Shown here in pieces: positions 224 through 41,242 of a stretch of DNA of 64,000 bases (position 1 is its first letter; each line of letters starts with the position of its first letter). The notes under the pieces are model-generated. The model saw only the letters and a program-made list of their open reading frames with translations, was not told the origin of the DNA and did no database searches. Position numbers and translations under genes: made by a program. The stretch is from Natronogracilivirga saccharolytica (GTDB lineage: Bacteria; Bacteroidota; Rhodothermia; Balneolales; Natronogracilivirgulaceae): positions 186,001-250,000 of the forward strand of contig NZ_JAFIDN010000005.1 in the NCBI RefSeq assembly GCF_017921895.1, read 5' to 3'.

Positions 224-937
224 TCACCCACCATCAGTACGGTGCATCAATTCATTGGCGCGCCACAGTGACTGCGGGGTTCCGGCGTCGGTCCACCAGC
301 CTTTCATGACGCTGTAGTACATCTTTCCTTCCCGGATGTAGTGGTTGTTGACGTCGGTGATTTCAAGTTCTCCACGGCCCGACGGCTTAAGAGTCCGGAT
401 ATAGTCAAAAACCTTTGCATCGTACATGTATACTCCGGTGACGCAGAGGTTGGATTTCGGCTTTTCCGGCTTTTCCTCGATCCCGGCAATCCGGTCACCG
501 TCCAGTTCAACCACGCCGTAACGCGTGGGATCCTCCACCTCTTTGAGCATAATCCCGGCGCCGGAACCGGGATAGGCCGCCATGGCAGCCGAAAGATCAT
601 CCTCAAAAATATTGTCTCCCAGGATGACGGTCATGGTGTCACCTCCAGCAAAGTTTTCAGCCAGACCGAGCGCCTGGGCAATTCCGCCGGCTTCATCCTG
701 AACCTTGTATGTAAAACGGCATCCGAATTCACGGCCTGAACCCAGGAGGCTGACGACATCGCCCATGTGTTCCGTTCCAGTTACAATCAGAATTTCCTCA
801 ATCCCGGCGCCGGTGAGCTTCTCGATCGGATAATAGATCATGGGTTTGTTGCCGACCGGCAGCAGGTGCTTGTTTGTGACTTTGGTCAGCGGATACAAAC
901 GAGAACCTGTTCCGCCCGCAAGTACAATACCTTTCAT
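224..937 (-). CDS. rmlA: Glucose-1-phosphate thymidylyltransferase, short form
   Basis: Makes dTDP-glucose from dTTP and glucose-1-phosphate, the first step of dTDP-rhamnose synthesis for cell-surface glycans. The nucleotidyltransferase signature GGTGSRLYPLT starts at residue 8, followed by the sugar-phosphate loop NKHLLPVGNKPMIYYP (22-37), LGDNIF near 106, EEKPEKPKS near 154 and WWTDAGTP near 213. At 237 residues it lacks the C-terminal dimer extension of the roughly 290-residue enterobacterial RmlA and belongs with the shorter form seen in many bacteria and archaea. It sits directly before rmlD. Its upstream DNA is a repeated leader element that also precedes the DUF2237 gene at 40865. A related sugar-1-phosphate nucleotidylyltransferase specificity cannot be excluded from sequence alone, but the rmlD neighbour favours dTTP and glucose. 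Confidence 0.85.
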   Translation of the reverse strand: MKGIVLAGGTGSRLYPLTKVTNKHLLPVGNKPMIYYPIEKLTGAGIEEILIVTGTEHMGDVVSLLGSGREFGCRFTYKVQDEAGGIAQALGLAENFAGGDTMTVILGDNIFEDDLSAAMAAYPGSGAGIMLKEVEDPTRYGVVELDGDRIAGIEEKPEKPKSNLCVTGVYMYDAKVFDYIRTLKPSGRGELEITDVNNHYIREGKMYYSVMKGWWTDAGTPQSLWRANELMHRTDGG

Positions 938-1023
938 GTGTTTAAATGTTTGGATTTATGTCGTCACATGTAATGTCATGACCGTATGTAATCATGCGCC
1001 TGTGTGTCCGGGCGCCGACCCGG
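938..1023 (-). repeat. Leader element, copy proximal to rmlA
   Basis: Read toward rmlA, this block has a GC hairpin (arms at 1008-1012 and 1019-1023), then CACACAGGCGCATGATTA (1006-989), a spacer, CATGTGACG (970-962), an AT-rich stretch and AAACACATGAAA, which contains the rmlA start. The same order of parts lies before the DUF2237 gene (40765-40864), where the hairpin stem has a different sequence but still pairs. That points to a leader RNA or a shared promoter unit. The function is unknown. Confidence 0.6.
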
Positions 1024-1033
1024 TCATGTTCAT

Positions 1034-1136
1034 TTCATCTGTTTAAAATTTTTGGATTTATATCGTCACATGAACCGAAGGTCACCAAGTGAAATGCCAT
1101 GACTGTCATGACAGTTTCAATCACACGTTTGTGCAG
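1034..1136 (-). repeat. Leader element, distal decayed copy
   Basis: A second copy lies about 100 bases upstream of the first. The segment 1039-1072 closely matches 938-970 and ends at an ATG (1038-1036) that leads nowhere. The segment 1065-1095 matches 40810-40840 on the other strand at 30 of 31 positions. A small perfect palindrome CTGTCATGACAG lies at 1103-1114. The rest of the 938-1284 gap (1137-1284) shows no gene or clear signal. Confidence 0.55.
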
Positions 1137-1284
1137 CAGAGCCTATGCCCCGTCATGAGTTTTTCATAATACACTGTTCGTCAGATCTTAGATGTCGTCG
1201 TGATATTTCATGTCTGAAGTTATTCTGACGCACAATGGTTGTCCGCATAATAGGATATTCGCAGGAATACATAAAGCGGACGTG

Positions 1285-10713: not shown

Positions 10714-10798
10714 AAGCATCACGACGGAATCATTCGCCGGGGCAGGATTAAGGAAGGCAGAAGGCGAATTACTGTGTCATGCACTGTTCATCACTCCT

Positions 10799-10994
10799 AA
10801 AGCACTCCACGACCTGCTCGCAAATGAGTCAGCGTGACAGTCCCAGGGATTCAACCACTGGACCCAACTTTTCAAATCACCGGCGGACTTGAAAAGCTTC
10901 GGCAACAACGCCCCCTGGCCATCGGTCACTGGCAGCTCCCGCAACGGGAGTCCGGCACCTCGCGATGGTTGCCTGACGGTTGCACCTCTTCAGG
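10799..10994 (-). promoter_or_regulatory. Lysine riboswitch (L box), proximal copy
   Basis: Read on the minus strand, this stretch has all the main conserved parts of the lysine aptamer in order: GAAGAGGTGCAA at the 5' side, TTGCCGAAGC, GTTGAATCCCTGGGACTGTC, and GTGGAGTGCTTTAGG at the 3' side. The outer P1 stem pairs CCTGAAG (10994-10988) with CTTTAGG (10802-10796, with one G-U). The E. coli lysC leader has nearly the same GAATCCCCTGGGTTGTCACC and GGTGGAGCACTTC blocks. It lies 167 bases upstream of dapB. Confidence 0.9.
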
Positions 10995-11097
10995 TAACAA
11001 TATTTAAGGAACAATAAAAAAGTGAGAGGGCGTCATTGTCACACTGCCTGTACGGATGGGCTTGTGCAGGTGTGATCAAACCCGAATGAGAAAGGGC
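10995..11097 (-). promoter_or_regulatory. Linker between the two lysine aptamers
   Basis: On the minus strand TCACACCTGC pairs with GCAGTGTGA (9 pairs and one bulge), followed about 17 bases later by a run of six T. It could be the expression platform of the distal aptamer, although the T-run is too far from the stem for a classic terminator. No coding region is seen. Confidence 0.35.
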
Positions 11098-11291
11098 CAG
11101 AAGCACTCCACAAGCTGTTTCGCACTGAAACAGTGTGACAGGAACCGGGATTCAGCCCGAAAACCCAACAAACCGGAAAGCCGTTTTCCCGGATTGCTTC
11201 GGCAAGTCATCCCCTCACCGTCGGTCGCAGGTTATGTCCGTTTCCGGACCGGCACCTTGCGACGGCTGCCTGATGCTTGCACCTCTTCAAT
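11098..11291 (-). promoter_or_regulatory. Lysine riboswitch (L box), distal copy
   Basis: A second full aptamer, about 103 bases upstream of the first. Conserved blocks in order on the minus strand are GAAGAGGTGCAAG, CTTGCCGAAGCAA, GGGCTGAATCCCGGTTCCTG plus TCACACTG, and TTGTGGAGTGCTTC. The copies agree in the conserved core but differ strongly in stem sequences that still pair (for example GGTCCGGAAACGGACA here against GGACTCCCGTTGCGGGAGC in the other), so this is an old or independently kept pair and not a fresh duplication. The aptamer begins within about ten bases of the promoter. Confidence 0.9.
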
Positions 11292-11298
11292 CAAGTCT

Positions 11299-19854: not shown

Positions 19855-22260
19855 TCAGAACACTACCTGAGTTTCCGTAACAGTAAAGGGAGCTTCCAGT
19901 CCGTCAACACGCAGAACGAATCCGCCCTCCTCTACAATCCACTCATTATTGTCATTGACAAATGCCAGCTTGCTGACCGGCACCCGGAATGTCACTTCTT
20001 CAGTCGCGCCGGCTGCAATTTCGATCTTCTCAAAATCACGAAGGCGTTTTACCGGAGGTGTGATAGATGCATAATCCTGGGAGGAAAACAGCATGACGGT
20101 TTCTTTCCCGTCACGATCAGATACATTCTGAACTTCCACAGTCACCTCAATGATGTCATCCACTCCGTAAGAAGAAGCATCTGTTGACAGAGAGACATAC
20201 TCAAATTCGGAATAGCTCAGGCCGAACCCGAATTCATACTGAGGATAAAACTGAGTGCCGGTGGGGGTGCCTTCAAGCTCCAGGTTTTCCGTGTGCTTGT
20301 GGTAGTAGGGAATCAGCTTGTTCGGATAGCGCGGATAGGTGTACGGCAGCCTTCCGGAGAAGTTGGATTCACCGAAAAGCAGAGACACAAGTGCTTCACC
20401 GCCATAATTGCTGGGCAAATAGGCATTGACGATGGCAGGCACCAGCGGTTCTACTTTGCTGATAATGCGCGGGCGGCCCTGGGCAAGCACCATGACCACC
20501 GGTTTGCCGGTTTCCGCAGCTACACGAACCAGCTTTTGCTGATAGTCCGACAGATAAAGGTCGTCCAGGTCTCCCTCACCCTCGCAATAGGAGTTTTCTC
20601 CGACAGCCAGTACGATGACATCCTTGTCTTCGGCTTTTTGCCTGAAAGCATCAAAATCATCCACAAATTCATCATCAAACGCACCGTCATGATCGAAGCG
20701 GACGGTTTCGTACAGGGTTACATTTCCTTCGCCCAGTTTCTCCGAAAAAGCGTCGTAAATCGTCAGGTAATCTTCGGTAAACTCATCCACCAGATCTCCC
20801 TGCCAGGAGTAGCTCCAGCCGCCGTTGAGCGGCCGCATGGTGTTTGCGGCGGGACCGGCAATCAGTGCGGAAATATCCGGATCAAGAGGCAGAACATTGT
20901 CTTCGTTTTTGAGCAGCGTGATGGATTCCAGTGCGGTCTGACGCGAGGCATCGGCAAAAGCTTCGGATGCAAATTCCGGATAATCATCCAAAACCGTATA
21001 GGGAGTTTCAAACAGTCCCATTTTCACCTTTACCGTCAGTATCCGGCGCACAGCATCATCGATCCGGTCCATCGGGACCTCTCCCTCATTGACCAGTTCC
21101 ACAAGATATCTGGAAAAGTCAAAATCGTAGGGAACCATGGACATATCCACACCGGCATTGATGGCCATTCGTACAGCGTCTTTATAATCGGCGGCGACGC
21201 GGTGGCGGGTATAGAGGTAAATGATATCCTGCCAGTCGGTCAGAACAAAACCTTCAAAGCCCATCTCCTCTTTCAGCAGGCCGGTAATCAGTTCTTTGCT
21301 GGAGTGAAACGGAATCCCGTTGATCTCTCCGGAGTTGAGCATGACGGTGAGCGCACCGGCATCGATACCTCCGCCTTCGAAGGGAGGCACATGGTACTCG
21401 CGAAGCTGTGACTCGGGTATCCATGCTGGTGAACGGTCGCGCCCGCTGAGTGTATGGGAATATCCCAGAAAATGTTTGGGGCAGGATGCAATCTGATAGG
21501 GGTTGCCAATGTCATTGTCTTCACCTTCATATCCTTTCACCAGTTCGTACCCCAAAACTTCAGACAGATAGGGATCTTCGCCGAAGGTTTCCCAGTGCCG
21601 GGGCCATCGCGGATCGACACCAAGGTCGAGTACGGGAGAAAACGTCCATGCCACACCGGTAGCCCTTGTTTCATAGGCTGTTATTTCACCGGCCCGGCGC
21701 ACGAGTTCCGGATTCCAGGTAGCGGCCATGCCGATTTGCTGGGGAAAAAGCGTGGCGCCGTCGACATAGGAAGCACCGTGGATCATGTCCAGTCCGTATA
21801 TGACAGGAATATCCTGTCCGGACTCTTCAATGGCATATCCCTGAATTTCAGACAGCAGTTCATTCCAGAACTCCGGAGTGCGGGCGCGGTTGTTGGCGGT
21901 GTTCAGTACCGATCCCACCTGGTAGGTACGGAACGCCTTTTCCATCATTTCCGGATCCAGCTCAAACGGTTCATAGCTGCTGTATACATCCTCTCCCTTG
22001 CCAAGTACATCGAGGGTGATCTGGGTCATCTGTCCCACTTTCTCCTCAAGTGTCATTTCGGCGATCAGCCCGTCCACCTTCTCGCGAGTTTCGGCTGATA
22101 TGACGGATTCTGTTTCCGCCTGATCGTGTGCCGCCTGTTCCGTTCCGGCTGCGGCATCCTCCCCGTTTCCGTCATCTGCGGCCGTCTGATTCATCGCGGA
22201 ACCGCAGGATGCGATCAGGAACAGCGCCAGAACAAGCATGGTTTTGTTTAGAAATTGCAT
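19855..22260 (-). CDS. GH3 beta-glucosidase, lipoprotein
   Basis: An 801-residue exo-acting beta-glucosidase. I chose the ATG at 22260, because it gives a signal peptide with lipobox IASC (Cys19); an open frame continues 44 codons upstream without a leader-like sequence. The GH3 N-domain follows an acidic linker, with KHFLGY (substrate-binding K-H) and the catalytic nucleophile D342 in GFVLTDWQD. Then come the alpha/beta sandwich domain and a C-terminal Fn3-like domain (YEFGFGLSYSEF onward). It is the last gene of the polysaccharide locus and would release glucose from oligosaccharides made by the two GH30 enzymes. Confidence 0.9.
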   Translation of the reverse strand: MQFLNKTMLVLALFLIASCGSAMNQTAADDGNGEDAAAGTEQAAHDQAETESVISAETREKVDGLIAEMTLEEKVGQMTQITLDVLGKGEDVYSSYEPFELDPEMMEKAFRTYQVGSVLNTANNRARTPEFWNELLSEIQGYAIEESGQDIPVIYGLDMIHGASYVDGATLFPQQIGMAATWNPELVRRAGEITAYETRATGVAWTFSPVLDLGVDPRWPRHWETFGEDPYLSEVLGYELVKGYEGEDNDIGNPYQIASCPKHFLGYSHTLSGRDRSPAWIPESQLREYHVPPFEGGGIDAGALTVMLNSGEINGIPFHSSKELITGLLKEEMGFEGFVLTDWQDIIYLYTRHRVAADYKDAVRMAINAGVDMSMVPYDFDFSRYLVELVNEGEVPMDRIDDAVRRILTVKVKMGLFETPYTVLDDYPEFASEAFADASRQTALESITLLKNEDNVLPLDPDISALIAGPAANTMRPLNGGWSYSWQGDLVDEFTEDYLTIYDAFSEKLGEGNVTLYETVRFDHDGAFDDEFVDDFDAFRQKAEDKDVIVLAVGENSYCEGEGDLDDLYLSDYQQKLVRVAAETGKPVVMVLAQGRPRIISKVEPLVPAIVNAYLPSNYGGEALVSLLFGESNFSGRLPYTYPRYPNKLIPYYHKHTENLELEGTPTGTQFYPQYEFGFGLSYSEFEYVSLSTDASSYGVDDIIEVTVEVQNVSDRDGKETVMLFSSQDYASITPPVKRLRDFEKIEIAAGATEEVTFRVPVSKLAFVNDNNEWIVEEGGFVLRVDGLEAPFTVTETQVVF

Positions 22261-40497: not shown

Positions 40498-40752
40498 GCG
40501 GCTTTTTTTTCTGACGCTTGTATCACAGAAAACCGGGCAATCGGTTTCTGCAAATATGCACAAATTGTCTCTCTATCTCAAAATGGAGTCCTGTGGCTTG
40601 TTTCAGGTGGAAACACGGACGGATTATCAGACTGACGAATATGGATTTATCCGGATTTCCCGATGCAACGGCTGTCCTTTTCTTTTTGTTTTGAAGGTAG
40701 ATATTGGCAAGCAGCTATCAGTTATTTACTGTGTCATGAAGTGATCAACACA

Positions 40753-40815
40753 TGAAATACCCATGGCGGCTTACCGCCACACAGGAGCATGATTATAGCC
40801 AACATGGGTATTTCA
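40753..40815. repeat. 13-bp inverted repeat with inner hairpin
   Basis: TGAAATACCCATG (40753-40765) and CATGGGTATTTCA (40803-40815) are perfect reverse complements. Inside the left half lies a small hairpin GGCGG-CTTA-CCGCC (40765-40778). It forms the front part of the leader element of the DUF2237 gene. Confidence 0.65.
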
Positions 40816-40864
40816 CTTCGTGACCTTCGGTTCATGTGACGTCAGAATCATAAATTATAAACAC
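40765..40864 (+). repeat. Leader element upstream of the DUF2237 gene
   Basis: Order of parts: hairpin (40765-40778), CACACAGGAGCATGATTA (40778-40795), spacer, TTCACTTCGTGACCTTCGG (40812-40830), CATGTGACG (40834-40842), an AT-rich stretch, then AAACACATGAAA with the gene start. The same order and several identical blocks stand before rmlA (938-1136, minus strand). The rest of the gap 40498-40752 shows nothing that I can name. Confidence 0.6.
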
Positions 40865-41242
40865 ATGAAAACAGGCATCAACATATTCGGAGAACCGCTG
40901 AAACCGTGCAGTAATGATCCCAAAACCGGATTTTACCGGGACGGTTGCTGCAATACGGGCGATGATGATTTCGGAATGCATACGGTATGCGCCGTCGTTA
41001 CCGATGAGTTTCTGGAGTTCAGCAAAAAGGTCGGCAATGATTTGTCAACACCGCAGCCCCAGTGGAAATTTCCCGGACTCAAGTCCGGAGACCATTGGTG
41101 CCTGTGCGCCAGACGCTGGCTCGAAGCCTACAGCGCCGGCGTTGCTCCGAAAGTGGACCTTGAAGCCACCCACGAAAAAACATTGAAAGTGGTGCCGATG
41201 AATGTGCTGCTGAAGCATGCATACAAGCCCCGGACTGATTAA
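40865..41242 (+). CDS. DUF2237-family protein
   Basis: 125 residues from the ATG at 40865. The family pattern is clear: NIFGEPLKPCSNDPKTGFYRDG near the start, CCNTGDDDFGMHTVCA, then LKSGDHWCLCARRWLEA and APKVDLEATHEKTL. The cysteines (C15, C28, C29, the C of HTVC, and the CLC pair) are conserved-looking, which hints at metal binding. Function unknown. The start lies directly at the end of a leader element shared with rmlA. Confidence 0.9.
   Translation: MKTGINIFGEPLKPCSNDPKTGFYRDGCCNTGDDDFGMHTVCAVVTDEFLEFSKKVGNDLSTPQPQWKFPGLKSGDHWCLCARRWLEAYSAGVAPKVDLEATHEKTLKVVPMNVLLKHAYKPRTD

Follow-up and report, generated by a model that had tools for sequence, protein, structure and literature searches.

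We analyzed a window of 64,000 nucleotides from Natronogracilivirga saccharolytica (NCBI RefSeq assembly GCF_017921895.1, contig NZ_JAFIDN010000005.1, positions 186,001 to 250,000 of the forward strand; unless a contig is named, positions are those of this whole stretch) in which short, structured repeat units run up to the start codons of two unrelated genes. The first gene encodes an RmlA-like nucleotidyltransferase (rmlA; 224–937, minus strand; PF00483, 211 bits), and its start codon (935–937) forms the end of unit 1, a short-form unit on the minus strand (933–1038) that extends from an ATGAA at 1034–1038 to an ATGAA at 933–937 and matches our covariance model with 127 bits (G000:C5:186933-187038, G000 being this genome). 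Directly upstream stands its tandem neighbor, unit 2 (1034–1167, minus strand, first ATGAA at 1163–1167), a partly decayed copy of the long form that was recognized by a covariance-model match of 34.9 bits and by alignment of the units. The second gene encodes a DUF2237 protein (40865–41242, plus strand; PF09996, 189 bits), whose start codon (40865) coincides with the end of unit 3, a long-form unit of the subfamily with a CCCATGG/CATGGG stem (40752–40869, plus strand, from ATGAA 40752–40756 to ATGAA 40865–40869). A first-pass annotation made from the letters of the window had described the same parts in the same order and orientation before both genes, and a third, decayed copy sharing a block with the DUF2237 copy; the sequence bears this out for all three copies, with a shared block of 35 nt at 94% identity.

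Read toward the gene, a unit consists of ATGAA, a 5′ arm, a small hairpin (P2), the core ACACACAGGNGNATGATTA, an arm complementary to the first, CATSTGAC, an AT-rich stretch and AAACAS, followed by a second ATGAA; units measure approximately 95–130 nt and contain no transposase gene. In the stem P1 the left end pairs with the internal arm. For unit 1, P1 spans 977–1028 on the minus strand (CATGACC at 1022–1028 with GGTCATG at 977–983, supported by pair counts and by a test of complementarity within and between units), and for unit 3 the predicted fold joins 40753–40765 to 40803–40815 over 13 bp (40753–40815, plus strand). P2, which in unit 1 lies inside P1 at 1010–1021 on the minus strand, varies in sequence and mostly keeps its pairing. 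In P3, the CATnTG that immediately follows the P1 arm pairs with CAnATGAA at the right end; in unit 1 (935–970, minus strand) CATGTG at 965–970 is complementary to CACATG at 935–940, and in unit 3 (40832–40868, plus strand) the fold pairs 40832–40838 with 40862–40868. The conserved core reads ACACACAGGCGCATGATTA in unit 1 (989–1007, minus strand), where it is common to the left end of the IS110 element described below, and CACACAGGAGCATGATTA in unit 3 (40778–40795, plus strand). The covariation that had been suspected in the stems holds across the family: complementarity between the 5′ end and the internal arm was 23.7 within units, as against 19.5 ± 0.41 when the pairings of 69 distinct arms were shuffled, a difference of approximately ten standard deviations. 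The variable position of P3 is paired in 62 of 94 units, compared with approximately 38 expected from base frequencies (an expectation calculated by hand). RNAalifold, applied to a mixed alignment, found P3 and missed P1 and P2 because of a one-column shift between subfamilies; these two stems were therefore assessed by subfamily alignment and a permutation test.

The units belong to a large family. Using the 216-nt rmlA copy as a BLAST query, we obtained 65 genomic matches, with E < 1e-20 for many of them, so that the resemblance among copies is not a matter of chance; the DUF2237 copy gave 82. The first-pass annotation had made its reading depend on there being further copies, and these exist in number: with 25 short units as its basis, a covariance model detected 103 copies at E ≤ 0.01 in the 3.75-Mb genome, and 17 of 20 genomes from the same family (Balneolales) also contained copies, 5 to 142 each. 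Profile searches of fetched loci in this genome resolved 120 units, grouped into 81 arrays that hold between one and four each, and within nearly all arrays every unit points toward the gene. A pattern scan of GTDB located further hosts among many metagenome-assembled genomes (MAGs) of Balneolales/Balneolaceae, mostly of the series CSSed16, in the Bacteroidales (Tobar18m-G2, Saccharicrinis aurantiacus, Prolixibacteraceae), and in one Chlorobiota and one Cloacimonadota MAG. Copies from Bacteroidales, Chlorobiota and Cloacimonadota have an unchanged left end and a longer, often different interior; the Cloacimonadota copy is placed between an AGGAG-type ribosome site followed by ATGAA and a gene that, from reading its translation, we take to be selA. 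No unit was found in phage, plasmid and viral collections.

Every unit is bounded by ATGAA at each end, and in most cases an unrelated gene uses the final ATGAA as its start codon. Across 86 intact arrays, the native left flanks have nothing in common past ATGAA. The codons behind arrays are ATG-AA(A/G) (Lys, 71), ATG-AA(T/C) (Asn, 8) and ATG-CAA (Gln, 2). At four orthologous loci elsewhere, one ATGAA stands alone without any unit, showing that the units were inserted; these empty sites concern an aroQ-like gene (L231, with a 101-bp insert, versus L190), purQ (L188, with three units in 310 bp, versus L141), a helicase gene (L213 versus L216) and one more pair (L138 versus L143). Since purQ carries units in several genomes (three in this genome, one in genome G018), one start codon has been repeatedly hit or kept. 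In 161 of 210 units the frame that opens at the first ATGAA stops within five codons (MK-stop, MKCP-stop and the like), so that the former start codon has been turned into a minute upstream frame.

The arrays favor gene starts. Of those with a well-conserved unit, 43 of 61 in this genome (42 open reading frames of at least 60 codons plus the 38-codon rpmJ) and 36 of 55 in G018 (the 51-codon rpmH counted) end at a gene start codon, as against a background, resting on a rough gene call of this one 64-kb window, in which gene starts make up 32% of the ATGAA sites outside gene interiors (p = 9e-10 and p = 6e-7, respectively). Many of the remaining arrays are decayed or end shortly before a gene. 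The bias exceeds what the loss of intragenic insertions alone would give: either start codons are selected, or the target is larger than ATGAA. (The idea that gene-distal units are the older ones was unsupported, with 30 arrays for it and 19 against, p = 0.15.)

Some of these features would also suit a leader RNA that regulates in cis, in the manner of a riboswitch or by binding a protein, is shared by a regulon, was spread by duplication and has been kept for regulation. The units combine covarying stems with a strongly conserved single strand and lie, with strong bias, in sense orientation on the 5′ side of genes, and the downstream genes common to this genome and G018 number six (rmlA, purQ and others), where two to three are roughly expected. 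We nevertheless consider this explanation very unlikely. The genes behind the units have no function in common (rmlA, the DUF2237 gene, purQ, rpmJ, a succinyl-CoA synthetase-like gene and a flagellar gene), the units have exact ATGAA ends, tandem copies, precise empty sites and both ends in common with an IS110 element, and the six common genes could be explained by old insertions or by repeated hits at the same ATGAA start. Moreover, Rfam searches of the window, including a permissive search of 900–1200, returned no match to a unit above the gathering score (one weak match lay below threshold). The suggestion in the first-pass annotation that the element originated as an undescribed leader RNA is thus not sustained. 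Its second and third suggestions, a mobile promoter and a repeat family with translation signals, came close: the units form a mobile repeat, each copy of which supplies an AT-rich 5′ context and a start codon, and the empty orthologous sites and IS110-like ends speak for mobility. A promoter role would be putative.

The genome contains an insertion sequence (IS) of the IS110 family that has the ends of the units. This element (C16:19893-21421, 1524 bp) lies at an ATGAA directly behind an array, and its left end is that of a unit, consisting of ATATTCATGCC, a hairpin and CGACACACAGGGGTATGATTA and containing ACACACAGGNGNATGATTA. Its transposase of 416 amino acids combines PF01548 (DEDD_Tnp_IS110; 95.6 bits, cut-off 29) with PF02371 (Transposase_20; 85.6 bits, cut-off 21.3), the pair of domains that marks an IS110-family protein, and is related in sequence to IS621, the structure of which is known (6e-12). 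In G224, from another family of the phylum, three units are followed directly downstream by an IS with the same left end (L368), whose transposase gene is 70% identical to that on C16 and apparently frameshifted. Comparison of these two elements places their right ends at AATTATAAACAC and AATTATAATCAG, each directly followed by ATGAA, which is the right end of a unit (common form, AATTATAAACAS followed by ATGAA). An alternative right end of the C16 element, at CCCCGTAG before an ATGAA (C16:21292), was rejected, as the comparison with G224 puts the end at 21417–21421. Two further left ends with the same transposase start occur in G027, and one 76%-identical copy in G019. The C-terminal motif G--P----SG of the IS110 family (PMC11187229) is matched by GVSPGSNESGG in G224; the corresponding GMSPGSNESAG of this genome has SA instead of SG.

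The 3′ non-coding region of the IS, a candidate source of a guide RNA of approximately 190 nt with two ATGAA stretches inside, is 79% identical between the C16 and G224 elements and recurs across genera, at 98–100% identity over approximately 60 nt, in G016 and G011, the contigs of which start within it, as expected if assembly breaks at a repeated element. At one locus of this genome (L377; G000:C4:287044-287182) only this region and the right end are present, with neither a transposase nor the left-end core. The fragment is flanked by ATGAA on both sides, precedes a PIG-L-like deacetylase gene, and is another route to a non-autonomous copy. All five IS right ends seen (those on C16 and C4 of this genome and those in G224, G016 and G011) directly adjoin an ATGAA with which a reading frame begins, in G224 one of only 43 codons. 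Between units and transposase-bearing IS, then, left end, right end and target are all alike, as expected of a non-autonomous element mobilized by IS110.

Because an IS110 element has the same left and right ends, the units are best read as its non-autonomous relatives, and we think it highly probable that they are short, MITE-like (miniature inverted-repeat transposable element) relatives of IS110-family IS with ATGAA as the target. In the mechanism that we propose, an IS110-type DEDD recombinase, provided in trans, would join the two ends of a unit, and the joined unit would be inserted at the 5-base site ATGAA. As ATGAA would then be present on both sides, a gene hit at its start codon would keep its coding sequence; one that begins ATG AAA (Met-Lys) would be read from the second ATGAA, behind the AT-rich right end of the unit. 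Intragenic insertions would presumably be lost and insertions at start codons tolerated, and because each insertion would recreate ATGAA, tandem arrays could grow. Mobilization in trans by IS110, guidance by RNA, a tolerated or beneficial new 5′ context, and any effect on expression are what we infer from the sequences.

Several observations weigh against this reading, in addition to the roughness of the gene-start background. The internal segment with which both ends of a unit pair is absent from the full IS, so simple internal deletion of the observed IS copies does not account for the units. Most of the unit-rich genomes that we searched, including G017 (98% complete, 20 contigs), lack an IS110 transposase of the C16 type, and the contigs of G016 and G011 that start inside the IS account for some such absences, not all. 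Further, approximately 30% of the intact arrays of this genome end at an ATGAA without a long open reading frame. The unit-specific internal arm and the many unit-rich genomes in which no IS110 of the C16 kind was detected, together with the usual position of IS copies directly behind a unit, would be compatible with units moved by some other enzyme, the IS110 element having captured a unit left end or merely targeting units. We judge this very unlikely: IS and unit ends agree on both the left and the right in two distant genera, IS copies with ATGAA on both sides occur, and use of the units as a mere target would leave the right half of a unit behind the IS, where none remains. Viral contigs contained no close relative of the transposase.

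Hairpin ends, a short fixed target and the lack of long terminal inverted repeats are also found in REP-like repeats (REP, repetitive extragenic palindromic) mobilized by a Y1 (HUH) transposase of the IS200/IS605/RAYT type. That the units are of this kind appears extremely improbable, and a Y1 partner was rejected, because the single Y1_Tnp protein of the genome sits in an ordinary IS200 with ends unrelated to those of the units. A single ordinary IS200-type element (L051; G000:C14:6911-7273), unrelated to the units, lies beside an NtrC-like regulator gene.

Within a unit, a single internal stretch of approximately 22 bases can pair first with the left end and next with the right end, and is thus nearly the reverse complement of the junction expected in a circular form. 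It may either hold both ends together in one folded strand or act as a guide, and its absence from the full IS suggests a function particular to the units. The two donor guides of IS621 bind opposite strands (PMC11208160). The units depart from the bridge-RNA donor-loop rule, by which the right-donor guide (RDG) pairs with the top strand of the left end and the left-donor guide (LDG) with the bottom strand of the right end: only P1 fits the RDG rule. Since the P1 and P3 arms pair with the same strand, we do not call the internal stretch a bridge-RNA loop. A more speculative possibility, which we hold to be doubtful, is that each unit of approximately 100 nt encodes its own minimal guide and amounts to a two-ended guide-RNA gene that targets start codons by means of a borrowed IS110 recombinase.

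Variants of the units and one other RNA feature of the window were also recorded. Long-form units (for example at 40815–40833 of the window, and at L314 and L320 in G017) may have or lack a 19-base block, ACCGAAGGTCACGAAGTG or its reverse complement. Both orientations occur, the block is amplified in G017 in tandem with CCCAGTGAAACGCGTAAGCGAA, and it looks like a separate micro-repeat. In the Bacteroidales MAG Tobar18m-G2 (L111-L126, L131 and others), unit left ends are followed by approximately 300 bases rich in GTCATT repeats and then by ATGAA, a form that has many copies in that genome. The sole inverted arrangement seen in the genome under study (L262; G000:C8:86630-86770) consists of two overlapping units of opposite orientation before a purE-like gene. 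Elsewhere in the window, a tandem pair of lysine riboswitches lies on the minus strand at 10792–10998 and 11093–11295 (Rfam RF00168, 70 and 63 bits).

Taken together, the units are most probably miniature, tandem-forming IS110 relatives that, owing to their 5-bp target, can land on start codons safely, a case of a mobile element that multiplies where a fixed 5-base site is recreated without damage to the gene. Genes of core functions are among the landing sites (purQ and rpmJ in this genome, rpmH in G018). The finding extends the field of IS110 and bridge RNAs, now used for genome engineering, to non-autonomous elements of approximately 100 nt with a 5-bp target, and it supplies a natural set of a few hundred variants with covarying end and internal segment, in which a guiding role of the internal segment is directly testable. 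It also urges caution: a 5′ leader that is conserved and covaries may turn out to be a transposon. A literature search turned up nothing published on miniature forms of IS110 or on the present repeat, a weak negative, as subscription papers were outside its reach.

The guide RNA with which IS110 transposases are known to operate comes from a non-coding region and can act in trans (PMC11187229; PMC11208160). The partner IS resembles IS621, ISEc21 and ISEc11 (PMC11208160, PMC11187229) in having PF01548 with PF02371 and a non-coding region next to the transposase gene. Like IS110 elements with a seekRNA or bridge RNA, the units have no long terminal inverted repeats and a sequence-specific target, and their end-complementary segment covaries with the left end as an IS110 right-donor guide would; unlike them, the units have no transposase gene, are only approximately 95–130 nt long, and use a target of only 5 bp (ATGAA). 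IS900 of Mycobacterium avium paratuberculosis, also of the IS110 family, has been reported, according to the title of Doran et al. 1997 as cited in PMC8141618, to target translation initiation signals, but is a full IS rather than a miniature one and differs in target sequence and host phylum. Classical bacterial MITEs are matched by the units in being short, non-coding, present in high copy and flanked on both sides by the target sequence, but not in terminal inverted repeats, as the unit ends (ATGAAATG on the left, AAACASATGAA on the right) are not inverted repeats. As with MITEs and REP/RAYT repeats, which are likewise intergenic, mobilization is thought to occur in trans; the units differ from both in their precise placement at start codons and in a partner of the DEDD/IS110 type rather than a DDE or Y1 transposase.
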